Positions 23,723 to 38,562 of a stretch of DNA of 64,000 nt are shown here, piece after piece; position 1 is the first letter of the stretch; the number at the start of each line of letters is the position of its first letter. The notes below the pieces were generated by a model. The model did not search any database, had not been told where the DNA came from, and was given only the letters and a program-made list of their open reading frames with translations. Source of the DNA: Opitutia bacterium Tous-C1TDCM (GTDB taxonomy: Bacteria > Verrucomicrobiota > Verrucomicrobiia > Opitutales > Opitutaceae); the NCBI GenBank assembly GCA_002288455.1, contig NEUS01000004.1:1-64000 (forward strand), written 5' to 3'. The position numbers were made by a program, and so were the translations under genes.

Positions 23723-25159
23723 ATGAAGTCCTTTGCCGCCGCCACCGCCCAGCTCCGCCGCCGCCTCGGCGCGAACGTCGTCCTGACCGACGACACCGCG
23801 CGCACCGCGGCGTCCTACGACAGCGCGAAGCTGCCGTTCCGGCCCGAGGCCGTGGTGCGGGTGACGCAGGAGGCGCAGATCGGCGCGGTGCTGGCGCTGG
23901 CGAATCGGCACGGCGTGCCGGTGACGACGCGCGGGCGGGGCACGACGCTGACGGGAGCCGCGACGCCGGTGCAGGGTGGTTGGGTTTTGGATACGCTGGC
24001 GCTCAACACGATCGCGATCGACGACGAAGCCGGCATGGCGCACGTGCAAGCCGGGGCCAAGGTTGCCGACATCCAGCGGGCGGCCGAGGCGAAGGGCTGG
24101 TTCTATCCGCCCGATCCCTCCTCGAAGGAATACTGCACGATCGGCGGCAACATCGCCTGCAACGCCGGCGGCATGCACGGCGGCAAGTACGGGGTGACGC
24201 GCGACTTCGTGATCGCGTTGCGCGGTTACCTGCCGACGGGCGAGGCCGTGACCTGGGGCACGGCGACGAAGAAGTTTTCCGCCGGCTTCAACCTGCGCGA
24301 TTTGTGGATCGGCAGCGAAGGCATGCTCGGCGTCGTGACCGGCGCGGTGCTGAAACTTATTCCGCAGCCGGCGGCGCGCTGGACCTTGCTGACCTCGTTC
24401 AAGGACGAGACGGCGGCGCTGCGGGCGGCGTTGGCGCTGTTCAAGCTGCGCGTGCAGCCGGCGATCTGCGAATTTCTCGACCGCGAGAGCGTGCTGTGCG
24501 CGGAGCGGGCGACGGGGCGGGCGGTGTTTGCGGGGCAGGCCGGGCGGCCGGTGCTGTTGTTGGAATTTGCCGGCGGGAAAGCGGAAGTGCGGGAAACGAA
24601 GCAGATCGTTTTGGGGTGGGCCGCCGAGCATGCGACCGGGAGCCGGGCCGCGAAGAACCGCGAGGAGGCGGAGCAACTTTGGGCGGTGCGGCGGAAATGT
24701 TCGGGCGCGATGTTCGAGCTCGGCGACGCGAAGCTGAACGAAGACATCGTCGTGCCGATGCGGAACTACGTGAAGTTCGCGCAATTTCTGGCGAAGCTGA
24801 AACGCGATTCGGGGCTGGCGATCCCGACCTTCGGGCATTTGGCCGACGGGAATCTCCACGTGAACATCATGTACCACAAAGCGGTGCCGGCGGAGTGCCG
24901 CACGGCGGAGCGGACGGTGCGCACGCTGATGGAAACCGTGGTGGCGCTCGGGGGCGCGATCTCCGGCGAGCACGGCATCGGGCTGGCGAAGACGCCGTTT
25001 CTGCGCATCCAGCATTCGCCGGCGCAGGTGCGCGCGATGCAGGCGGTGAAGCGGGCGCTCGATCCGAACGGCGTGCTCAATCCCGGCAAGATGTTCGAGC
25101 CGTTCGAAGTGTGGAAACACCCGCGGCTCGAGGTGAAACTGCCGTGGGATCACAAATGA
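23723..25159 (+). CDS. FAD-binding oxidase, glycolate oxidase GlcD type
   Basis: PVTTRGRGTTLTGAATPVQGG, GGNIACNAGGMHGGKYGVTRD, FGHLADGNLHVNIMY, SGEHGIGLAKTPFL. Confidence 0.92.
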   Translation: MKSFAAATAQLRRRLGANVVLTDDTARTAASYDSAKLPFRPEAVVRVTQEAQIGAVLALANRHGVPVTTRGRGTTLTGAATPVQGGWVLDTLALNTIAIDDEAGMAHVQAGAKVADIQRAAEAKGWFYPPDPSSKEYCTIGGNIACNAGGMHGGKYGVTRDFVIALRGYLPTGEAVTWGTATKKFSAGFNLRDLWIGSEGMLGVVTGAVLKLIPQPAARWTLLTSFKDETAALRAALALFKLRVQPAICEFLDRESVLCAERATGRAVFAGQAGRPVLLLEFAGGKAEVRETKQIVLGWAAEHATGSRAAKNREEAEQLWAVRRKCSGAMFELGDAKLNEDIVVPMRNYVKFAQFLAKLKRDSGLAIPTFGHLADGNLHVNIMYHKAVPAECRTAERTVRTLMETVVALGGAISGEHGIGLAKTPFLRIQHSPAQVRAMQAVKRALDPNGVLNPGKMFEPFEVWKHPRLEVKLPWDHK

Positions 25160-27561
25160 ACGGGCCGGGGACGGCCCGGGCCGCGCGCTGGTTCGAGCGG
25201 GCGCTGGTGGCCGCGACGATGGCCGCGGCGGTGTGGTTTTTCCATTGGACCACGGCGGCCAACGCCGGCTTCGGCGACTGGGACGAGGTCGATTATTTCA
25301 AGCTGCTGGTGCGCGGCTGGAAGAAGGGCCAGCTCAGTCTCGATATCGCGCCGAAACCGGAGTTGCTGGCGCTGGCGGATCCCTACGATCCGGCGCAAAA
25401 CGCCCCGCACCGGCTCGGGGACGCGACCCTGTACAAGGGAAAGTACTACATCTATTTCGGTCCGGCTCCGGCCCTGACGGTGATGCTGCCGTGGAATCTG
25501 GTGACGGGCCGGGAAATGTCGATGGGCACGGCGGTCTTCGTGTTCAGTTGTCTCGGCTATTTCGCCGCGTGCGGGCTCTGGCTGGCGCTCCGGCGGCGCT
25601 ATTTTCCCGAAAGCCACCTGCTGGTCGCGCCGCTGGGAGTGCTCGCGCTCGGATCCGGCACCCATCTGCTGGCACTGGTGCAGCGGCCGATGTTCTGGGA
25701 ACTGCCGATCGCGGCGGGGATCGCGTTCGTGTTGCTGGCGGCGGCGGCGATCTATGCGGCGGTGCACGGCCGGCGGCCGCTCGCGATGATGGCGTTGGCG
25801 GGGGTGTTGCTCGGCCTCGGCGTGGGCTCGCGGCCGACGGTCCTGTTCGCCGCGGGCATGCTGCTGCTGCCGGTGTGGCTGGCGTGGCGGGAACGCGATC
25901 CCGCGCGGCCGGCGTGGTGGCGGCTGGGCTTGGCGGGCACGGTGCCGCTGGGGCTGTGCGGGCTGGCGATCATGGCGCACAACTATGCGCGTTTCGACAA
26001 TCCGCTCGAGTGGGGCCAGAACTACCAGTTGTCCGGCGCGTACGAGGGCAAGCTCGTGCATTTCGCGCTGCGGTTTTTGCCGCACAACGTGGGGGTGTAT
26101 TTTTTCCAGCACCTCCAATGGAGCGCGGACTTCCCGTTTGCGCGGGCGGTGGGCATCGAGATCAACCACATCAAGGACTACTTCGGCACCGAGGAAGTGG
26201 CGGGGCTGGCGGTGACGTTTCCCTACTTCTGGTTTCTGCTCGCGCTGCCGCTGGCGTGGTGGCGGCGCGGCCCGGACGAGACTCGCCGGCTGACCGCGGC
26301 GCTGGGCGGCGTCCTGGCCTATGCGGTGCCGGTCGGCGGCTTGGTGATGGGGTATTTTTCGACGACGACGCGCTACCAGACGGACTTCGCGGTCGTGACC
26401 GGGTTGCTGGCGCTGGTCGGTTTGCTCGCGGTGGAGCGCTGGATCCGGGTCGTGCGCCCGCGCCTGCGGGTCGGTGTCGTGGCGGCGGCCATCGCGGCCG
26501 TCGCGGTCACGGCCGTGATCGGCGGGCTTATGAGTTTCGATTACCATGGCCGGACCTTGCGGACGACCTCGCCCGCACTCTGGCAAATGCTGGACGGCCG
26601 GACCGAAGCGATGCTGGCATTCGTCGGGCAGAAATTCGATCTGGTGGACGGCCCGCAGGTCCTGAAGGTCCGTTGGCGGCAGCAGCCGGCGGGAACAATC
26701 GAACCGGTGTGGGAGCCGCTCGATCGGCGCGCGGACGAGCGGATCCTCGTCGAGCACATCGGAGAGAAGCTGATCCGGTTCGGCTATGCGCGGGGCGGCG
26801 AGGCGATCCGTTGGGGCCGCCCGCTGAAGTGGGCAAACAACCACACGCACACGGTCGAAATCCAGGTGCCGTCGCTGCACCGGGCCGGTCGCAACGACCG
26901 GTGGAGCCGGGTCCGGGAGCGGACGGAATTTCGGCGCCGCACCGGTGTGGCGGTGTGGTTCAGCGGCGGCCGCGCGCTCGACGCGATCGTGCCGGCGTGG
27001 CCGGCGGATTTGCAGATCGGAGGCCGGATCTCGCGGGAGTTCAGCGGCGAAGTCCGGTCGCAGACGACGCGGGCGTTCCGGCCCGACGAAGTGCCGTCGG
27101 GTCTCGTGGAGGAGTTCGCGAAACGCGGCGGCGTGTTGCGCTTCCGCGTCGTTTTTCCGGAGCCGCTCCAGGAGGCGGGCGAGCCGCTGTTCGCCGCGGG
27201 CGCGCATTTCCGTTCCAATATTCTGGCGGTCGAGACGTGGGGCGACGGTATCCGCTTCGCTTACGAGAACTACTCTTTCCCCCGCGTGAACTCCGAGCCC
27301 TTCAAGCCGAATCCGGCCGGGCATTGGGTGGAATTGGAGATGGCGTCGTTCCGTCCGGACGATTTCGGCGGCGAAGGCACGGGCGATGTCGTCGTGCGCC
27401 TGGACGGCAAGGAAATGATTCGCTCGCGGCAGGAGGCGTATCATTTTCCGTGGGGCCACGAGCGCATCGGCTGGAATCCTTTCGGCACCACGTGCGCGGC
27501 GGAGTTCCGCGGCTGGATCACCGAGGCGCGTTGGATCCAGGCGCGGCCGGCGACGGATTGA
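25156..27561 (+). CDS. Polytopic membrane protein with soluble C-terminal domain
   Basis: Multiple hydrophobic segments followed by a ~330-aa soluble region; ATGA overlap with glcD-like gene. Confidence 0.75.
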   Translation: MNGPGTARAARWFERALVAATMAAAVWFFHWTTAANAGFGDWDEVDYFKLLVRGWKKGQLSLDIAPKPELLALADPYDPAQNAPHRLGDATLYKGKYYIYFGPAPALTVMLPWNLVTGREMSMGTAVFVFSCLGYFAACGLWLALRRRYFPESHLLVAPLGVLALGSGTHLLALVQRPMFWELPIAAGIAFVLLAAAAIYAAVHGRRPLAMMALAGVLLGLGVGSRPTVLFAAGMLLLPVWLAWRERDPARPAWWRLGLAGTVPLGLCGLAIMAHNYARFDNPLEWGQNYQLSGAYEGKLVHFALRFLPHNVGVYFFQHLQWSADFPFARAVGIEINHIKDYFGTEEVAGLAVTFPYFWFLLALPLAWWRRGPDETRRLTAALGGVLAYAVPVGGLVMGYFSTTTRYQTDFAVVTGLLALVGLLAVERWIRVVRPRLRVGVVAAAIAAVAVTAVIGGLMSFDYHGRTLRTTSPALWQMLDGRTEAMLAFVGQKFDLVDGPQVLKVRWRQQPAGTIEPVWEPLDRRADERILVEHIGEKLIRFGYARGGEAIRWGRPLKWANNHTHTVEIQVPSLHRAGRNDRWSRVRERTEFRRRTGVAVWFSGGRALDAIVPAWPADLQIGGRISREFSGEVRSQTTRAFRPDEVPSGLVEEFAKRGGVLRFRVVFPEPLQEAGEPLFAAGAHFRSNILAVETWGDGIRFAYENYSFPRVNSEPFKPNPAGHWVELEMASFRPDDFGGEGTGDVVVRLDGKEMIRSRQEAYHFPWGHERIGWNPFGTTCAAEFRGWITEARWIQARPATD

Positions 27562-27858: not shown

Positions 27859-29196
27859 ATGTCTGTTGTTTTCCCTGAGTCGGCGCTGCCGCGCATCGGC
27901 ATGATTTCCACCCACGGCTATGTCGCCGCGGAACCCCCGCTGGGCAAGGCCGACACCGGCGGCCAAGTGGTCTATGTGCTCGAGCTCGCCAAGAAACTCG
28001 CCCAGCTCGGCTTCGAGGTGGATATCTGGACCCGCCGCTTCGAGGACCAGCCCGACATGGATGTCGTCAACGAGCGCGTCCGCGTCGTGCGGGTCCCCTG
28101 CGGGGGCCGCAACTTCATCGACAAGGAATATCTGGTGCGGCACCTGAACGAATGGGCCGAACGGGCCCTGCGCCTGATCAAGCGGCACGGACTCCGCTAT
28201 CATTTTCTCAACAGCCACTACTGGGACGCCGGGTTCGCCACCCAGCGGCTCGCCGAAGCGCTCGCCGTGCCGCACGTCCATACCCCGCATTCCCTCGGAA
28301 TCTGGAAGCGGCAGCTGATGGAGAAGGACGACCCGGCCGACGCGGCGAACGCCGAGGCGAAATACAATTTCGCGCAGCGGATCGACGAAGAGAACCTGCT
28401 CTACCGGAATTGCGAGCAGGTCATCGCCACCACGCCGGACCAGGTGGACATGATTGTGAAGGACTACGGAGCGCCCGCCGAGCGCGTGGCCATGATCCCG
28501 CCGGGTTACGACGACAACCGATTCTTCCCGGTGAGCGGCGCATCGCGCGAGGCGCTGCGCGCCCGCCTCGGCTACGCGGGCCGCGCGGTGCTCGCCATCG
28601 GGCGGCTGGCCCGCAACAAGGGCTACGATCTGCTGATCGACGCGTTCACCCTGGTCGCGGCCCGGATTCCCGATGCCGTGCTGCATCTCGCGGTCGGCGG
28701 CGCCTCGCTCAATCCCGAGGAACAGGCGATCCGCGACGAACTCAAGGCCCAGGTCGTCCGGCTCGGGCTCGCCGAACGGGTCAAGTTCTCCGGGTTTGTC
28801 GCCGACGCCGATCTCGCCGACCACTACCGGGCGGCCGATGTGTTCGTGCTCAGCAGCCGCTACGAGCCCTTCGGCATGACCGCCATCGAGGCCATGGCCT
28901 GCGGCACCCCGACGGTCATCACCGTGCACGGCGGCCTTTTCCGCGCCGTCACATTCGGGCGCCACGCCCTCTATGCCGACTCCCTCGACAAGGAAGATCT
29001 CGGGATCTCCATCGTGAAAATCCTCCGGCATCCGCGTCTATCCCATCGCCTCGGCCGCATGGGGGCGCACAAGGCCCGCAGCCTCTTTACCTGGACGGGC
29101 ATCGCCCAGCAGCTCACCCGGCTGATCGAGGAGCGCACCGTGGCGCTCGCGTTCACGGACACCGAATGGGATGAACCTTGGAACGACGGAGATTGA
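27859..29196 (+). CDS. mfpsA: Mannosylfructose-phosphate synthase-like glycosyltransferase (GT4, sucrose-phosphate-synthase related)
   Basis: RIGMISTHGYVAAEPPLGKADTGGQVVYVLELAKKL, MIPPGYDDNRFFPV, VLSSRYEPFGMTAIEAMACGTPTVITVHGGLFRAVTFGRHALYAD, C-terminal EPWNDGD; resembles A. tumefaciens MfpsA as I recall it. Confidence 0.78.
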   Translation: MSVVFPESALPRIGMISTHGYVAAEPPLGKADTGGQVVYVLELAKKLAQLGFEVDIWTRRFEDQPDMDVVNERVRVVRVPCGGRNFIDKEYLVRHLNEWAERALRLIKRHGLRYHFLNSHYWDAGFATQRLAEALAVPHVHTPHSLGIWKRQLMEKDDPADAANAEAKYNFAQRIDEENLLYRNCEQVIATTPDQVDMIVKDYGAPAERVAMIPPGYDDNRFFPVSGASREALRARLGYAGRAVLAIGRLARNKGYDLLIDAFTLVAARIPDAVLHLAVGGASLNPEEQAIRDELKAQVVRLGLAERVKFSGFVADADLADHYRAADVFVLSSRYEPFGMTAIEAMACGTPTVITVHGGLFRAVTFGRHALYADSLDKEDLGISIVKILRHPRLSHRLGRMGAHKARSLFTWTGIAQQLTRLIEERTVALAFTDTEWDEPWNDGD

Positions 29197-29199
29197 GCG

Positions 29200-31314
29200 A
29201 TGAGCGCACCAGCATCCGCCCGGCCGATCCGGCTCTTCAGCTCGGACCTCGACGGCACCCTGATCGGCAATCCGGAGGCGACCCACCGGTTCAAAATTGT
29301 CTGGACCGGACTTTCGCCCGAAGCGCGTCCCCTGCTGGTCTACAACAGCGGCCGGTTGGTGGACGACCTGCGCCGTTTCGTGGACAACGGGACCCTGCCG
29401 GCCGCCGACTACTACGTCGGCGGTGTCGGCTCCCAGATCTTCGACGCCGGAGCCGGGCGAATGCTGGACGAGCTGCACGCCCATCTCGCCGACGGCTGGG
29501 ACGGCACGGCGGTGCGGGAACTCGTGGCGAAATTTCCCGGGGTTCGCCCCCAATCGCCCGAATTCCAGCATGAATTCAAATCCAGCTGGTTCCTCGATCG
29601 GGCCACCCCCGGATCGATCCGCGAATTGAAACGGCGGCTCGCCGATGCGGGTCTGCGGGTGAAGATCGTCTATTCCAGCAGCCGCGACCTCGATGTGCTG
29701 CCGTACCAGGCCACCAAGAGCGGCGCCCTCGCGTGGCTTTGCGCGCGGCTGGGCGTGCCGCTCGACACCGTGCTTGTGGCGGGCGATACCGGCAACGACG
29801 CCTCCATGTTTCGTCTGCCCGGCGTCCGCGGCATCATCGTGGAAAACGCCCTCCCCGAACTCTTCGAAGCCACCGTGGATGTGCCGACCTACAGTTCGCG
29901 CCAGATTCTCGCCGACGGGGTCCTGGACGGCCTTTGCCACTACGGAGTCGTCTGCGCCCTGCCCGCGAAGGACCGGACCCGGCTCAAACCCGCGGACATG
30001 GAACCCGGATTCCGGATGCTCTTTTCCGGCACCAAGCTCGGCACGCTCACGGATCAGGAGCGCGTCTTTCTCGCCACCGCGTACGAGCAGGCCCTCGTGG
30101 CCCTCCGGAAGAACATCACGCCGCGCGGGTTTTCCGCCTGCTCGCTCGCCGACAACACGGTGACGGGCACCGACACCAACTACCGCAGCGTCTGGGCCCG
30201 CGACGGCGCGATCACGGTTTGGAATACCCTGCATATCGAGGACGAGGACGTGCGCGCCGCCCAGGTCGCGACGCTCGAAACCCTGCTCAACGCCGCCACG
30301 CCCAACGGCCAGATTCCGGCCAACGTCCGGATCGACGACGGCGAGCCCGACTATTCCGGCGTGGGCAACATCGCGTCGATCGACAGCGGTCTCTGGGTCA
30401 TTGTCGCGCTGTACAACTACGCCAACCACACCGGAGATCTCACGTTGCTCTACCGGCACGCCGACCGGCTCCAGACGGTCATGAATTGGCTCGGCGCGCA
30501 GGATTCGAACAACGACGGCTTGCTCGAGATCCCGGAGGCGGGCGACTGGACCGACCTCTTCGGCCGCAGCTACAACGTCCTCTACGACGAGGTGCTCTGG
30601 TTCCGCGCCAACCTGTGCTACGGGCGCATCCTTGAACTGATGGGCCAATTCGACCGCGCGGCCGACTACCTCCGGTGGTCGCAACGGATTCGCAGCCGCA
30701 TCCTCGAGGTCTTCTGGCCGACCACGGCGCCCGAGGCCGGCAGCCCGGGCCGGAACCGTTTCGCCGAACGCCAGTCGGGCCTCGGCGATGCGCAATACCT
30801 CCTCGCCGAGATCACTCCGTTCTCCTTCAGCTGGCGCTGCGATCCCTACGGCAACATTCTCGCCTTCCTGATGAACGTCCTGGACGTGGACCGCGCGCGC
30901 ATCGCGTTCCGGTTCATGTGGGGCGTGGGCGTCAACCAGCCGTGGCCGGTCGCCAACCTGTACCCGGTCGTGCAGGCCGGCGATCCCGACTGGCGATCGT
31001 ACTACACGGTCAATCTGCTCAATCTGCCGCATCACTACCACAACGGCGGCATCTGGCCGTTCATCGGGGGGCTCTGGGTGCGATTCATCCACCGCCTCGG
31101 CTTCCACGAGGTCGCCTGCCGGGAACTCGTCCGCCTCGCCGAGCTCAACCGCCTCGGCCGCGATCGGGAGTGGGAGTTCAACGAGTGGGCGCACGGCCAG
31201 ACCGGCCGCCCGATGGGCAAGGCCTTCCAGGCTTGGAGTGCGGCTTCGTTTCTCCGTGCCTGCCATGAACTCGAGGCGAACGAGGCGAATCCCAAGGGGC
31301 TCGACCAGGAGTAG
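29200..31314 (+). CDS. Bifunctional protein: N-terminal MfppA/S6PP-like HAD phosphatase fused to (alpha/alpha)6 glycosidase-like domain (GDE/neutral-invertase type)
   Basis: RLFSSDLDGTLIGNPEAT, VYNSGRLVDDLR, VAGDTGNDASMF phosphatase motifs; then NYRSVWARDGAITVWNTLHIED, EIPEAGDWTDLFGRSYNVLYDEVLWFRA, YHNGGIWPFIGGLWV. Confidence 0.8.
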   Translation: MSAPASARPIRLFSSDLDGTLIGNPEATHRFKIVWTGLSPEARPLLVYNSGRLVDDLRRFVDNGTLPAADYYVGGVGSQIFDAGAGRMLDELHAHLADGWDGTAVRELVAKFPGVRPQSPEFQHEFKSSWFLDRATPGSIRELKRRLADAGLRVKIVYSSSRDLDVLPYQATKSGALAWLCARLGVPLDTVLVAGDTGNDASMFRLPGVRGIIVENALPELFEATVDVPTYSSRQILADGVLDGLCHYGVVCALPAKDRTRLKPADMEPGFRMLFSGTKLGTLTDQERVFLATAYEQALVALRKNITPRGFSACSLADNTVTGTDTNYRSVWARDGAITVWNTLHIEDEDVRAAQVATLETLLNAATPNGQIPANVRIDDGEPDYSGVGNIASIDSGLWVIVALYNYANHTGDLTLLYRHADRLQTVMNWLGAQDSNNDGLLEIPEAGDWTDLFGRSYNVLYDEVLWFRANLCYGRILELMGQFDRAADYLRWSQRIRSRILEVFWPTTAPEAGSPGRNRFAERQSGLGDAQYLLAEITPFSFSWRCDPYGNILAFLMNVLDVDRARIAFRFMWGVGVNQPWPVANLYPVVQAGDPDWRSYYTVNLLNLPHHYHNGGIWPFIGGLWVRFIHRLGFHEVACRELVRLAELNRLGRDREWEFNEWAHGQTGRPMGKAFQAWSAASFLRACHELEANEANPKGLDQE

Positions 31315-32705: not shown

Positions 32706-34553
32706 TCAGTGCGGCGCGAGGTCGTCCGCGCGGCGATTTTCGAGCGTGTGGGCCGTCATCATGAATTCCGGTGCGCGCGCCAGATCGAAGCCGATCCCGA
32801 CTTGAAGGCTTCCTTGCGGCAGGCGTTCGCGCCGCAGCCGCAGTTCGAAACCCGCATGGATCCCATCCCAACGGGCGATGGACTCGGCGACGTCGGGGCG
32901 GACCTGCGGGAGCGCTTCGTAGGCGACCATTTGGTCCGGGGTCCGGAAGACGACTGCGATATCCCCGGGCCGGGCGGTTTCGTCGCGGCGAATCGCCCAG
33001 CCGCGCACGCGGACTTCCGCCCGATCGAGCGCCACGTCCTCGATGAAATAGGTCGCGTCCCCGATTTCGGTCGCCGCCCGCACGGGCAGAGCGGGCGGGC
33101 GGGCGAAGTGCAGGGCTTCCAGCTCCGGCAGACGGTAGATGCCGCGGGACTCCGCCTCCCGGATCAGGGCGTCGGCGCGGGCCGGATCCGGATAGGGCGG
33201 GGTCGCGGCCTGCGCGAAACTGCCCCGTTCCCGGAAAATGCGGACCGCTTGTTCGGCACCGGCGGCAAAAATCCGGCCGGTGTGCGCGTGAGCCGAGTTG
33301 GCGAGAACGTTGCCGAGCGCAAGCCCCCCGAAAACCGGGATCCGCCACCAGGCGCGACCGGGCCGGCGGGCGAGAAGCCGCTCCAGCAGCAGCCAGATGA
33401 ACAGGCCCCAGGCGATCGAGCTGAGAATCACGTAGCGCGAGGCGACCGGGGCCCACGCATTGGCCAGAAGTGCCCGCCCCCAGGCGATCAGGCCGATCGC
33501 GGCGAGGCACCAGAAGATGACCGCGACGGCGAACCACTCGCGCGGCGCGGACCGGCGCGCCGCGGCCGCCGCGAACCCGACCACGAGCACGGCTCCGAAC
33601 CAAGGCGCGAGCTCGGGGTGGCCGACAGCCGGCGAACTGCCCGCGATCCGCAACGCATACAGCAGCACCGCCGGGAGTTCCGGCGGGGCGGGCAGCCGAT
33701 GCCCCGGATTGAATTCGAAACCGGCGAGAAAGACGCCGCTGGCCGCGATCCCGAGCGCGGCCCAGACCAGCGCCGCCTGCCGGCGCCGCTGCCGCAGCAG
33801 CAGTCCGAACCCGACCGGCCAGACCAGGAGACCGTGGGCGAGGGAGTAACCGGCGAGGAGTGCGGCGCAGGTCGCGACCGGCAGCGCCGCGCGGCCGGAC
33901 GAGACCAAGGCGCCGAGCGCCGTCACGGCCGCGAGCACGACAAAGAAATGATCGATCGACGAGCCGGCCCAGAAGAGACTTTCGTGATGCTGCAGGTGGA
34001 AGACGGAAAGACTGAACACCGCCGCCAAGCGCAGCCGGGCCGCGGGATCGCCTTCCCGGGCCAGGAGCACGCCGAAGGCGGCGAGCAGAAACAGATTTCC
34101 CGCCGCGGCCAGCAGCGCAAAGTCGACCCCGCCGCCCAGCCAATACGCGAAGGCGAACAGCAAACGGCTGGCGAGCATGCGGTGCTCGTTGTTCACGGCA
34201 AAGCAGGCCTGCAACGTCTCCGTCCAGCCCGCCCCGCGTTCCAATTGCAGGAGGAAGTCGAGCACGGTGTCGTACTCGTCCCAGTGCGGGATATTGCGAA
34301 CCCAGACCGTTACCTGTCGGGCGATGTAGAACACCGGCACCGCCGCGAGCAGGGCATCGACGGCGGCGAGGCGGGTTCCGAGGGGGACGTCCCGAGGGGA
34401 AGCAGGTGAAGCTGACGACACGTGAACAGGTGTCCGGGGACAGGGGTGGCGCGGCGGCGCGAAGGATGGTTCGGCCGGAGCGGACAGGGCGCGGGTCGAG
34501 CCGGAGAGGCTTTGAAGGCCCGGGCGGGGGCAGGGGCGCAAAGCGAAGCGCAT
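32706..34553 (-). CDS. Polytopic membrane protein, hypothetical
   Basis: Several hydrophobic helices; HWDEYDTVLDFLLQLERGAGW; no confident family. Confidence 0.65.
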   Translation of the reverse strand: MRFALRPCPRPGLQSLSGSTRALSAPAEPSFAPPRHPCPRTPVHVSSASPASPRDVPLGTRLAAVDALLAAVPVFYIARQVTVWVRNIPHWDEYDTVLDFLLQLERGAGWTETLQACFAVNNEHRMLASRLLFAFAYWLGGGVDFALLAAAGNLFLLAAFGVLLAREGDPAARLRLAAVFSLSVFHLQHHESLFWAGSSIDHFFVVLAAVTALGALVSSGRAALPVATCAALLAGYSLAHGLLVWPVGFGLLLRQRRRQAALVWAALGIAASGVFLAGFEFNPGHRLPAPPELPAVLLYALRIAGSSPAVGHPELAPWFGAVLVVGFAAAAARRSAPREWFAVAVIFWCLAAIGLIAWGRALLANAWAPVASRYVILSSIAWGLFIWLLLERLLARRPGRAWWRIPVFGGLALGNVLANSAHAHTGRIFAAGAEQAVRIFRERGSFAQAATPPYPDPARADALIREAESRGIYRLPELEALHFARPPALPVRAATEIGDATYFIEDVALDRAEVRVRGWAIRRDETARPGDIAVVFRTPDQMVAYEALPQVRPDVAESIARWDGIHAGFELRLRRERLPQGSLQVGIGFDLARAPEFMMTAHTLENRRADDLAPH

Positions 34554-34704
34554 GACGATTTTGTCAGGTTCGGGCGGCGCCGATCCGCAGACTGCGCTTG
34601 CGGCGGGCGCGGCGGCGACGCGCCGTCCCGCCGAAACTCCCGGCCGGTTTTTCCGTTGCGGGGGAGGGGTGCCGCCGTTGAATGACCACCCTTTCCCACC
34701 CTGC

Positions 34705-37700
34705 ATGTATCTCAAGGCGCTCAAGCTCCACGGTTTTAAAAGCTTTGCCGACCCCACCACGCTCCGCTTCGAACCGGGGGTCACGGCCATCGTCGGGCCC
34801 AACGGTTGCGGCAAATCCAACGTCGCCGATTCGATCCGCTGGGTGCTCGGCGAACAGAGCGCGAAGGCACTGCGCGGCGGCAAGATGCAGGACGTCATTT
34901 TCGAGGGCGCGGACACCCGCAAGCCCGCGCAGATCTGCGAAGTGTCGCTGCTGCTGACCGATTGCGAAAAGCAACTCGGCTCCGAGTACCACGAGATCGA
35001 GATCATGCGCCGCGTGCACCGCGACGGCCAGAGCGAGTACGCGTTCAACGGCCAGCCCTGCCGCCTGAAGGATATCCAAAAGCTCTTCATGGATACCGGC
35101 ATCGGCCGGACCAGCTATTCGATCATGGCGCAGGGCCAGATCGACCAGATCCTTTCCTCCAAGCCCGAGGAACGCCGCGCGGTTTTCGAAGAGGCCGCCG
35201 GCATCACGAAGTACAAATCGCAACGCCGCGAGGCGATGCAGAAGCTGACGCTCACCGACCAGAACATGGCCCGCGTGGCCGATGTCATCGGCGAGGTCGG
35301 CCGCCAGATCGGCAGCCTCCGCCGCCAGGCTTCGAAGGCGATGCGTTACAAGCGGCTCAACCACCGCCTGCGCCACCTCGCGCTCGCGTGGAGCGGCTAC
35401 CAGCACGCGCAGTTATCCGACACCCTCGGCGCCCTGGAAACGAAGGTCGCCGCCCTGCGCGCCGCCGCGGACGAGCGCCGTTCCAATTTCGAAACCCAGG
35501 AATCCGCCCTGACCGAGAAACGCGCGCACCGCGGCCGGCTCAACCAGCGCGTGCAGGATGCGCAGCAGGCGGTCTTCGATCTGCGTTCCCAGCGCGAGGC
35601 CGCGGAAAACGCCGCCAATCTCGCCCAGATCAAACGCAGCGGCCTCGAGGACCGGCTCGGTTCCTCCCAGGCCAATCTCGGCGAAATCGAGATGCAGCTC
35701 CGCGAGGTATCCGCCCAGGTCGACACCGGCGCTTCCGACAAACAGATCCAGCTCGAATTGCTCGGCGGCAGCGACGCCACGTTCCAGGAACGCAACCGCG
35801 AGCTCACCGTCGTCGAAGGCGAATTGAGCCGGCTCGAACAGGAACTGAACCAGGCGAAATTCCATTTGCTCCAGATCGAGAGTTCGGTCGCCCGGCTCCG
35901 CACCGATTGCTCCGGCTACGAGGTCGACCAGAAGACCAGCGTCCACAAACACGATTCGCTCGCCCAGGAACTCGAGGGCGTGCGCCAGCAGCAGGCCGCC
36001 GCCGCCCAACTCGTCGCCGAGATCGAGGCCCGGCACGAAGAAGCGCAGGTCGAGAAATCGCGCGCGCACAACGACACCGTCGTCGCCCAGCAGACGATCA
36101 CCGACCTGACCCGCGAATTCCGCGACGCCCAGCGCAAGCTGCAGGACATCGACCGCCAGCTCGCGCAACGCACCGCGCGGCTGCGGCTGCTCCAGCAATT
36201 GCAGGAAAAGTGGGAAGGCTTCGGCGAAGGCGCCAAAGCCGTCCTCCAGGGCCGCCTCGAAGGCGCGCTGCAGGGCGCGAAGGTCACGCCGATCATGCAC
36301 GGCCTCGCCGTGAAGGCGGAGAGCGGGAAAGCGGTCGAAGCCATCCTCGGCAATGCCGCGGAAGCCATCAGCGTCAGCGATCTTTCCACCGCGCAGCGCA
36401 TCTTGGCCCAGCTTGAAACCGAGCAAATCGGCTCCGCGGTGCTCCGCGTCACCGAGATCGGCCTGCGTTCCGAAGGGTTCTTCGAATTGCCGCCGGGCCT
36501 CGTGCCGGCGGTCGACGCCGTCAGCGAGACCGAAGCCGGCCACCCGGCGCTCGGCGTCCTGCGCGAATCCTACATCGCCGACGACCTGAACGCGTTTCTC
36601 GAATTCTGGAAAGCCAACCCCGGCTTCGCGTTCCTCGCCGTCGCCACGCGCAAGGGCGACCTCGTCGACCGCCGCGGCCTCGTTTACGGCGGCCACCACA
36701 GCAGCAAGCGCGCGGCGCACAGCATCGTGCAGCGCGAAATCGATCTGCGCGAAACGGCCAAGGCCCTGGCCGACGACCAGAAGTCGCACGACGACCAGAA
36801 GGCCGTCATCGACGCCCTCAATCTCCGCCTCGCCGAGGCCGAGCAACTGCTCGAGCAGCGCCGCGCCGATGTGCTCGCCGCCACGCAGACGCTCGCGTCC
36901 GTGCAGGCCGAGCAGCGCAACGCGCAGCGCAACGCCGACGACCTCGCCAACCGCCTGACGCGGATGGAAAACGAAGTCACGGCCCTCGAACAATCCCGCA
37001 ACGAAGCCCACGCGCGCTGGGAAAAGGCCCAGACGGCGCTGGCCGCGGCCGACGGCACCGCCGCCGCGCAGCGCGAGACGATCCAGCGGCTCGAGACCCG
37101 CATCGTCGAGGTACGCACGGACCGCGACGTGAAGCGCGAGACGCTCGCGCAGGCGCGCCTCGAACTGGCGGAACGCCGCCAGAAGATCGAGGTGCTCGAC
37201 CGCGGGCTCGGCGAAATGGAACGCCGCCGCCAGCAACTCGGCGAGTTGCTCGGACAGCGCCAGGCCGAGATCGAGGCCTGGACCGCGCAGATCGACGAAC
37301 TGGAACAGACCTCCGCCGCGCAGCGCGCCCGCGCCGCCGAATTGGCCGAGACCTTCGGGGTGGCGCAGGATCAGGTGGAGCAGGTGCGCGTCGAGCTCGT
37401 CGAGGTGGAAAAAGAAATCCGCGGCCTCGAATCCGCGCAGACCGCGGTGCGCGACGAATCCGAAAACGCCCACGACCAGCTCAGCGCCCACGAGGTGAAG
37501 CTGGCGGAAAACCGGCAGCGCGCGCAGTTCATCGCGGAGGAAATCACCCGCGAGTTTTCCCTCGATATCTCCGGCATCGCCTGGCGCCGCCAGCTGTGGC
37601 GCGCCGACGACGAGCCCGAGGGCATCAAGGTGCTCGACCTCGACGAGGACGACGACGAGGGCGGAGCCGCGCCGGCCCCGGCCCCCGAGCCCGCCGCCGA

Positions 37701-38562
37701 ACCGGCCGCCGAGGGCGCCGAAGCGGCCGCGGCCCCGGCCAAGCGCCGCCGCAAAAAGAAGGAAGCCCGCGGCGAGCCGACGGACGACGATCTGAAGGCG
37801 CTGGACGCCACGGACTGGACGGCGATCAAGGTCGAAGTCGACGCGTTGCGCCAGCGGCTCAACAGCATGGGCGCGGTCAACCTCGTCGCGATCGAGGAAT
37901 ACGCGGAGCTCAAGCAGCGCCACGATTTCCTCGCCGGCCAGGTCAACGATCTCACCACGGCGAAGACCGAGCTGATGAAGGCGATCGACGAGATCAACCA
38001 GACCTCGATGCAGCAGTTCCAGGTCACCTTCGAGCAGATCAAAAAGAACTTCGAGTACACCTTCCACACGCTGTTCGGCGGCGGCCGGGCGCACCTCGAG
38101 TTGATCCAGGCCGAGGACATCCTCGAGAGCGGCATCGAGATCGTGGCGCAGCCCCCGGGCACGAAGCTCAAGGGCATCACGCTGCTCTCCGGCGGCCAGA
38201 AAACGCTGACCGCGGTCGCGCTGCTCTTCGCGCTCTACATGGTGAAGCCGTCGCCGTTCTGTCTGCTCGACGAACTCGACGCGCCGCTCGACGAATCGAA
38301 CATCGGCCGCTTCACGGAGCTGCTCAAAAAATTCGTCCACGAATCCCAGTTCATCATCATCACGCACAACAAGCGCACCGTCTCGGCGGCCAAGGCGATC
38401 TACGGCGTGACGATGGAGGAACGCGGTGTTTCCAAGACGGTGTCGATGCGCTTCAACCAGGAGCGCGGCGAGCCCGAGGCGCAGACCATGAACCTCGCGG
38501 AATCCGTCCGCGGCACGCAATTGGCGCCGGCGAAAACCGCTCCGGCGGCCGTGCCGGCGTGA
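34705..38562 (+). CDS. smc: Chromosome segregation protein SMC
   Basis: Walker A GPNGCGKSNVADSIRWVLGEQ, long coiled coils, hinge, C-terminal LLSGGQKTLTAVALLFALY...FCLLDELDAPLDESNIGRF. Confidence 0.96.
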   Translation: MYLKALKLHGFKSFADPTTLRFEPGVTAIVGPNGCGKSNVADSIRWVLGEQSAKALRGGKMQDVIFEGADTRKPAQICEVSLLLTDCEKQLGSEYHEIEIMRRVHRDGQSEYAFNGQPCRLKDIQKLFMDTGIGRTSYSIMAQGQIDQILSSKPEERRAVFEEAAGITKYKSQRREAMQKLTLTDQNMARVADVIGEVGRQIGSLRRQASKAMRYKRLNHRLRHLALAWSGYQHAQLSDTLGALETKVAALRAAADERRSNFETQESALTEKRAHRGRLNQRVQDAQQAVFDLRSQREAAENAANLAQIKRSGLEDRLGSSQANLGEIEMQLREVSAQVDTGASDKQIQLELLGGSDATFQERNRELTVVEGELSRLEQELNQAKFHLLQIESSVARLRTDCSGYEVDQKTSVHKHDSLAQELEGVRQQQAAAAQLVAEIEARHEEAQVEKSRAHNDTVVAQQTITDLTREFRDAQRKLQDIDRQLAQRTARLRLLQQLQEKWEGFGEGAKAVLQGRLEGALQGAKVTPIMHGLAVKAESGKAVEAILGNAAEAISVSDLSTAQRILAQLETEQIGSAVLRVTEIGLRSEGFFELPPGLVPAVDAVSETEAGHPALGVLRESYIADDLNAFLEFWKANPGFAFLAVATRKGDLVDRRGLVYGGHHSSKRAAHSIVQREIDLRETAKALADDQKSHDDQKAVIDALNLRLAEAEQLLEQRRADVLAATQTLASVQAEQRNAQRNADDLANRLTRMENEVTALEQSRNEAHARWEKAQTALAAADGTAAAQRETIQRLETRIVEVRTDRDVKRETLAQARLELAERRQKIEVLDRGLGEMERRRQQLGELLGQRQAEIEAWTAQIDELEQTSAAQRARAAELAETFGVAQDQVEQVRVELVEVEKEIRGLESAQTAVRDESENAHDQLSAHEVKLAENRQRAQFIAEEITREFSLDISGIAWRRQLWRADDEPEGIKVLDLDEDDDEGGAAPAPAPEPAAEPAAEGAEAAAAPAKRRRKKKEARGEPTDDDLKALDATDWTAIKVEVDALRQRLNSMGAVNLVAIEEYAELKQRHDFLAGQVNDLTTAKTELMKAIDEINQTSMQQFQVTFEQIKKNFEYTFHTLFGGGRAHLELIQAEDILESGIEIVAQPPGTKLKGITLLSGGQKTLTAVALLFALYMVKPSPFCLLDELDAPLDESNIGRFTELLKKFVHESQFIIITHNKRTVSAAKAIYGVTMEERGVSKTVSMRFNQERGEPEAQTMNLAESVRGTQLAPAKTAPAAVPA

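Follow-up and report, generated by a model that had tools for sequence, protein, structure and literature searches.

A phosphatase-glycosidase fusion beside a glycosyltransferase gene in an Opitutia bacterium, a candidate module for making and clearing a hexosyl-fructose solute

Why would a protein predicted to release a compatible solute also carry a domain predicted to destroy it? Accounts of compatible-solute pathways usually start from synthesis, while clearance of the pool is less well known, and two adjoining genes of Opitutia bacterium Tous-C1TDCM (assembly GCA_002288455.1) place this question within one protein. They lie in the first 64,000 nucleotides of contig NEUS01000004.1, a stretch referred to here as the window. 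The first gene (27859..29196, plus strand) encodes a glycosyltransferase of 445 amino acids (aa), assigned to GT4 by its Pfam domains and putatively akin to mannosylfructose-phosphate synthase. The second (29200..31314, plus strand) encodes a 704-aa protein in which Pfam, sequence and fold matches in the PDB, and conservation delineate a HAD domain of the sucrose-phosphate phosphatase (SPP) type followed by a GH100-like glycosidase domain. Together, the two genes probably form a module that both makes and clears a non-reducing hexosyl-fructose serving as compatible solute, either mannosylfructose or sucrose. The second protein combines known enzyme types in a new fusion, and its unusual feature is that a predicted releasing and a predicted destroying activity share one polypeptide.

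Architecture and conservation of the fusion

The TGA stop of the glycosyltransferase open reading frame (ORF) ends at 29196 and the ATG of the fusion gene lies at 29200, leaving a gap of 3 nt, exactly as placed by the first-pass annotation. That annotation had also assigned about 245 aa of phosphatase-like and about 450 aa of glycosidase-like sequence to a single protein, sizes with which the Pfam matches agree. The S6PP profile covers residues 11-249 (29230..29946, plus strand) with an E-value of 2e-58 and 198.3 bits (gathering cut-off, 20.3), and comparison with the Synechocystis SPP (1s2o) showed the HAD motifs SDLDGT, NSGR, K173 and GDTGND to be intact. The same SPP heads the matches to the domain in the profile search of PDB sequences (E=1e-45) as well as in the fold comparison (E=6e-17, with a TM of 0.83 on the target). 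As the domain misses the NCBIfam cut-off for the SPP equivalog TIGR01485 (137.1 vs 183.65 bits), it is of the SPP type but is not the plant and cyanobacterial SPP equivalog. Phosphate removal is thus a well supported prediction for this part of the protein.

The remainder of the protein, residues 266-704 (29995..31311, plus strand), corresponds to the (alpha/alpha)6 glycosidase-like domain recognized at first pass. Its best Pfam match is Glyco_hydro_100 (4.5e-15, 55.7 bits against a gathering cut-off of 23.6, best stretch 531-689), followed by a weaker match to GDE_C (4.4e-10 over 332-686, 39.5 vs 21 bits), while the GH63 MGH1-like profile (PF22422) stays below its gathering cut-off (21.3 vs 27 bits). 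When the domain was modelled alone (mean pLDDT 76) and searched with Foldseek, ranks 1-21 were all GH100 enzymes, namely Anabaena InvA and InvB and Arabidopsis CINV1, with a TM of about 0.6. The next group comprised the GH63 glucosylglycerate (GgH) and mannosylglycerate (MgH) hydrolases, and none of the top 50 fold matches was a debranching enzyme. The presumed general acid, D452 (codon 30553..30555, plus strand; motif GDWTDLFGRSYN), aligns with the Asp of 'MIDRRMG' in InvA, and the presumed general base, E662 (codon 31183..31185, plus strand; motif WEFNEWxHGxTGxPMGK), with the Glu of 'FPEYYDG'; these we take to be the InvA catalytic residues D188 and E414. Neither residue varies across 25 fusions, nor do the long segments surrounding them, and the motif YHNGG is common to the domain and InvA. 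Since the TM is about 0.6 and the active-site loops are poorly modelled, profile, fold and residues were weighed jointly for the family assignment, and by all three the domain appears nearest to GH100 neutral/alkaline invertases and not to alpha-1,6-glucan debranching enzymes. A debranching enzyme, outscored by GH100 in profile and fold, was rejected as first choice, and activity on alpha-1,6-glucans only, which the first-pass annotation had named as an outcome that would speak against its proposal, is disfavoured.

Is the fusion itself genuine? Searches covered 390 genomes of the phylum and 385 of the class (G and L numbers below denote survey genomes and loci). The phylum survey gave full-length homologues (54-82% identity) in about 26 other genomes from several families. 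Querying the class with the glycosidase domain brought in four more genomes with close matches, each of them continuous with HAD sequence. The fusion is carried by about 28 genomes of the phylum, which rules out a chance read-through or assembly join. Two seemingly unfused cases among the four added genomes (G523 and G575) are cut by contig ends, with the HAD piece still attached, and only in G254 and G180 are the three parts separate adjacent genes. The glycosidase domain is the better conserved of the two, at about 58-87% identity to the window protein compared with 39-82% for the phosphatase domain. With both genes as first annotated, conserved homologues and intact catalytic residues, the fusion is real. 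In the source assembly (4.15 Mb, 160 contigs, 86% complete), the protein is the only above-cut-off S6PP match and the only GH100 match; the fragmented and incomplete state of the assembly leaves the absence of further copies unproven.

Mannosylfructose or sucrose as the likely product

Which disaccharide the pair would make depends first on the glycosyltransferase. Its nearest solved structures are TeSPS (6kih), a sucrose-phosphate synthase (SPS), and MshA (3c48), yet it falls far below the NCBIfam cut-off for SPS (TIGR02472, 192.6 vs 576 bits) and below that for MshA (TIGR03449, 226 vs 462.5 bits). In a tree with long branches, whose deep joins are unsure, it clades with its relatives and a Paracoccus glycosyltransferase, apart from SPS, TeSPS and MshA, with 100/99 support for the separation from SPS. 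Both SPS and MshA were accordingly rejected as identities for the enzyme, each on its missed cut-off and its place in the tree. Substrate contacts of TeSPS were taken from the structural paper (PMC7264703), the numbering of which is, by our own count, three below that of the PDB chain. The residues of the fructose-6-phosphate pocket and catalysis are kept in the window enzyme (Q36, K89, R174, H144 and E336, with Q36, K89 and R174 forming the acceptor set). Moreover, Q36 lies in a GGQ motif where MshA has GGM, which fits fructose-6-phosphate as acceptor. By elimination, and by the resemblance to the Agrobacterium enzyme named at first pass, it is a candidate mannosylfructose-phosphate synthase. 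The mannosylfructose pathway of the first-pass annotation is consistent with an enzyme that belongs to neither equivalog and has the expected acceptor pocket, while use of GDP-mannose is unreadable from sequence.

The genomic company of the fusion brings sucrose into consideration. Across the 385 class genomes, each of the 25 with a glycosyltransferase of this kind (Opitutus-type) also has the glycosidase domain, and seven have the domain without that glycosyltransferase: four with SPS, two with incomplete loci (G360 and G575) and one (G641) with a 34%-identical stand-alone enzyme. A true SPS adjoins the fusion in G066, G246, G257 and G322 (L050, L055, L046 and L047, respectively), with 597-636 bits against the cut-off of 576 in the three genomes in which it was scored. 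In all four operons, the C-terminal HAD-like tail of SPS lacks DxDxT, which the fused HAD domain keeps. As the only intact phosphatase of these operons, the fused domain is likely to serve as their sucrose-phosphate phosphatase, so that sucrose is probably made there and is probably hydrolysed by the fused invertase-like domain. The same dead tail was seen in G280 (L053), where SPS is accompanied by a stand-alone SPP but by no glycosidase.

In the tree of the fusions, those paired with SPS are nested among the others as a supported clade (100/100) on a long stem (0.84). Seven fixed differences in the region of the glycosidase domain separate them from the fusions paired with the Opitutus-type enzyme (positions 283, 305, 329, 451, 455, 621 and 688). 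T451M and G455N sit on either side of the presumed acid D452, while positions 329 and 621 fall in conserved motifs. Together with the long stem, these differences suggest that specificity may differ between the two kinds of pair, leaning towards mannosylfructose for the window. They are a hint only, as the history of the clade could by itself yield the same pattern. On balance, we lean slightly towards mannosylfructose as the product of the window pair and keep sucrose as a substantial alternative, while any other product is hardly to be expected. The natural exchange of the GT4 enzyme for a true SPS, with the fusion kept, also offers a built-in comparison of specificity.

The sucrose option can also be taken by itself as a rival explanation, in which the module makes sucrose throughout, with the glycosyltransferase as an unrecognized SPS and the fusion as a sucrose-phosphate phosphatase joined to a neutral invertase. 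We consider this plausible without favouring it. The four relatives working with true SPS, whose own phosphatase-like domain looks dead, keep it alive; the nearest solved relatives of the glycosidase domain cleave sucrose, the YHNGG motif is common with InvA, and TeSPS is the nearest solved relative of the glycosyltransferase. However, the tree places the glycosyltransferase apart from SPS, its score falls far short of the SPS cut-off, and the substitutions beside the acid look as if specificity differs.

A candidate synthesis and turnover module

Whichever the hexose, the proposed sequence of events would be the same. Judging from its family and pocket residues, the glycosyltransferase would transfer a hexose from its nucleotide-sugar donor onto fructose-6-phosphate to yield an alpha-hexosyl-(1-2)-beta-fructofuranose phosphate. 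The fused HAD domain would then take off the phosphate to give free mannosylfructose or sucrose, and fold, residues and genetics suggest that the GH100-like domain could hydrolyse the same disaccharide to hexose and fructose, acting as an inverting glycosidase in which D452 is the acid and E662 the base, whenever the cell needs to dispose of the solute or reclaim its carbon. In about ten loci the fusion is followed by a PfkB-type kinase gene, the product of which could return the fructose to fructose-6-phosphate. Because an always-on hydrolase would create a futile cycle, control of the glycosidase domain is expected, and it could be speculated that net accumulation depends on its regulation, for example by restraint at high ionic strength. 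The synthesis and turnover reading put forward at first pass is upheld by the nearness of the domain to sucrose-cleaving GH100 enzymes and by its co-occurrence with the synthase.

This co-occurrence extends beyond the fusion. In G254 and G180, a Paracoccus-type glycosyltransferase and a separate phosphatase adjoin a glycosidase of the same family, so that the domain accompanies three synthesis sets, the others being the Opitutus-type glycosyltransferase and SPS. In a plasmid collection, the window glycosyltransferase has a single close relative, from Paracoccus sp. TOH (49% identity). On plasmid p1 of that strain (L062:3668-7260), a weak GH32-type protein, annotated as hypothetical, is followed by a HAD phosphatase and then the glycosyltransferase. 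A fructoside-cutting or invertase-like enzyme thus accompanies several versions of the synthesis set, with a different hydrolase family in this role in Paracoccus. Two further genomes vary the arrangement. G144 has extra glycosyltransferase copies (L059 and L129), of which the L059 copy is followed by a phosphatase without a glycosidase and then by a GH43 gene. In G360 (L054), the glycosidase domain is reduced to its last part, in a 261-aa ORF on a contig that continues, with kinase and MscS genes still adjoining; this is a possible remnant of a decaying locus.

Several points weigh against the proposed module. Were the hydrolase permanently active, its fusion to the enzyme of the final synthetic step would set up a futile cycle, and its activity, like the use of either donor sugar, is putative. 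Identity between the glycosidase domain and characterized GH100 enzymes is only about 20%, and the conserved active-site loops of the domain are modelled with low confidence. The long stem and the seven differences, several of them in active-site motifs, mean that specificity may have changed between the kinds of pair. Finally, neither the PfkB kinase gene nor the MscS-type channel gene found near the fusion in six loci adjoins the window pair, and a search of the 86% complete assembly, made without a positive control, did not find the kinase.

A second alternative, which we regard as improbable, is that the glycosidase domain acts on some other glycoside, such as glucosylglycerate, an imported sugar or a glucan kept as storage, so that the fusion would link two carbohydrate steps with no turnover of the module's own product. 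The above-cut-off GDE_C match and the GH63 hydrolases as next structural group would agree with this, as would a related stand-alone Deinococcus enzyme that adjoins sugar-transport genes. Yet GH100 outscores GDE_C and the MGH1-like profile is below cut-off, and complete co-occurrence with the synthase, the three synthesis sets and the GH32-type gene in the same place in Paracoccus all point back to the module's own disaccharide. That the domain is catalytically dead and merely binds sugar or scaffolds the phosphatase is very unlikely: the non-functional HAD domain of some SPS (PMC4390843), a pattern repeated in the SPS-paired operons here, offers a precedent, while the invariance of D452, E662 and their surroundings and the better conservation of the glycosidase domain speak against it.

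Returning to the synthesis-plus-turnover module, its most novel form would be a two-headed osmolyte enzyme, one polypeptide that frees mannosylfructose from its phosphate and hydrolyses it on an osmotic or ionic signal. We put this forward tentatively, as a rather doubtful possibility. If true, a single protein would contain the set point for the solute pool, and the glycosidase domain would be, to our knowledge, the first described mannosylfructose hydrolase, which would be a useful enzyme.

How does the pair compare with known systems? The mannosylfructose pathway of Agrobacterium, MfpsA-MfppA, was reportedly described by Torres and Salerno in 2007. It consists of a GT4 enzyme and a HAD phosphatase encoded by neighbouring genes, and to this extent the window pair resembles it; the difference is that the Agrobacterium phosphatase is a separate protein not known to carry a glycosidase, whereas here a glycosidase is fused to the phosphatase. 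In Agrobacterium, mannosylfructose is a salt-induced compatible solute (PMC2918589). Synthesis and breakdown genes also stand together in cyanobacterial sucrose clusters, such as the spsA-sppA-frkA-amsA operon of Synechococcus PCC 7002 (PMC11046441; further clusters in PMC4390843), which group a synthase, a phosphatase, a fructokinase and a sucrose-breaking enzyme. However, these are separate proteins, the breakdown enzyme is an amylosucrase or sucrose synthase and not a GH100-like domain, and a phosphatase-hydrolase fusion is unmentioned.

Similarly, the GH100 invertases (Anabaena InvA and InvB, Arabidopsis CINV1) share with the fusion the fold, the positions of the catalytic Asp and Glu and the YHNGG motif, but they stand alone and have MIDRRMG around the acid in place of DWTDLFG. 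The GH63 glucosylglycerate and mannosylglycerate hydrolases are of the same fold class and are intracellular enzymes that mobilize a compatible solute (PMC6608630), yet they are more distant in profile and fold, are separate from synthesis, and have YW instead of YH at the -1 sugar motif as judged by motif position and not by residue-by-residue alignment. One of them, MhGgH, is proposed to be an inverting enzyme, Asp182 serving as its acid and Glu419 as its base, and hydrolyses gluco and manno substrates alike (PMC6608630); the fold thus cannot tell gluco from manno specificity. Bidomainal SPS (GTD-PHD) likewise displays shuffled sucrose-synthesis domains, including dead phosphatase domains, but there the synthase is fused to the phosphatase, while here the phosphatase is fused to the hydrolase. 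No description of an SPP-GH100 fusion was found in the open literature, subscription papers lying mostly outside, which makes this weak evidence of absence.

Surroundings of the pair

Besides the kinase and MscS genes, the wider set of loci has a CLC-type channel gene nearby in L051 and a BCCT transporter gene nearby in L061, an SPS locus without the glycosidase. Such channel and transporter neighbours fit an osmotic role and are no proof of it. Within the window, a promoter scan across the locus region found none, and terminator-like sites were no more frequent than expected by chance. Upstream of the glycosyltransferase gene lies an 803-aa ORF (25150-27561) that matches no Pfam family and resembles a putative glycosyltransferase family (LA_3751/LA_3752) only very weakly. 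Downstream, an ORF of about 800 aa on the minus strand (32706-35102), also without a Pfam match, is situated directly before an SMC gene on the other strand (about 34705-38562).

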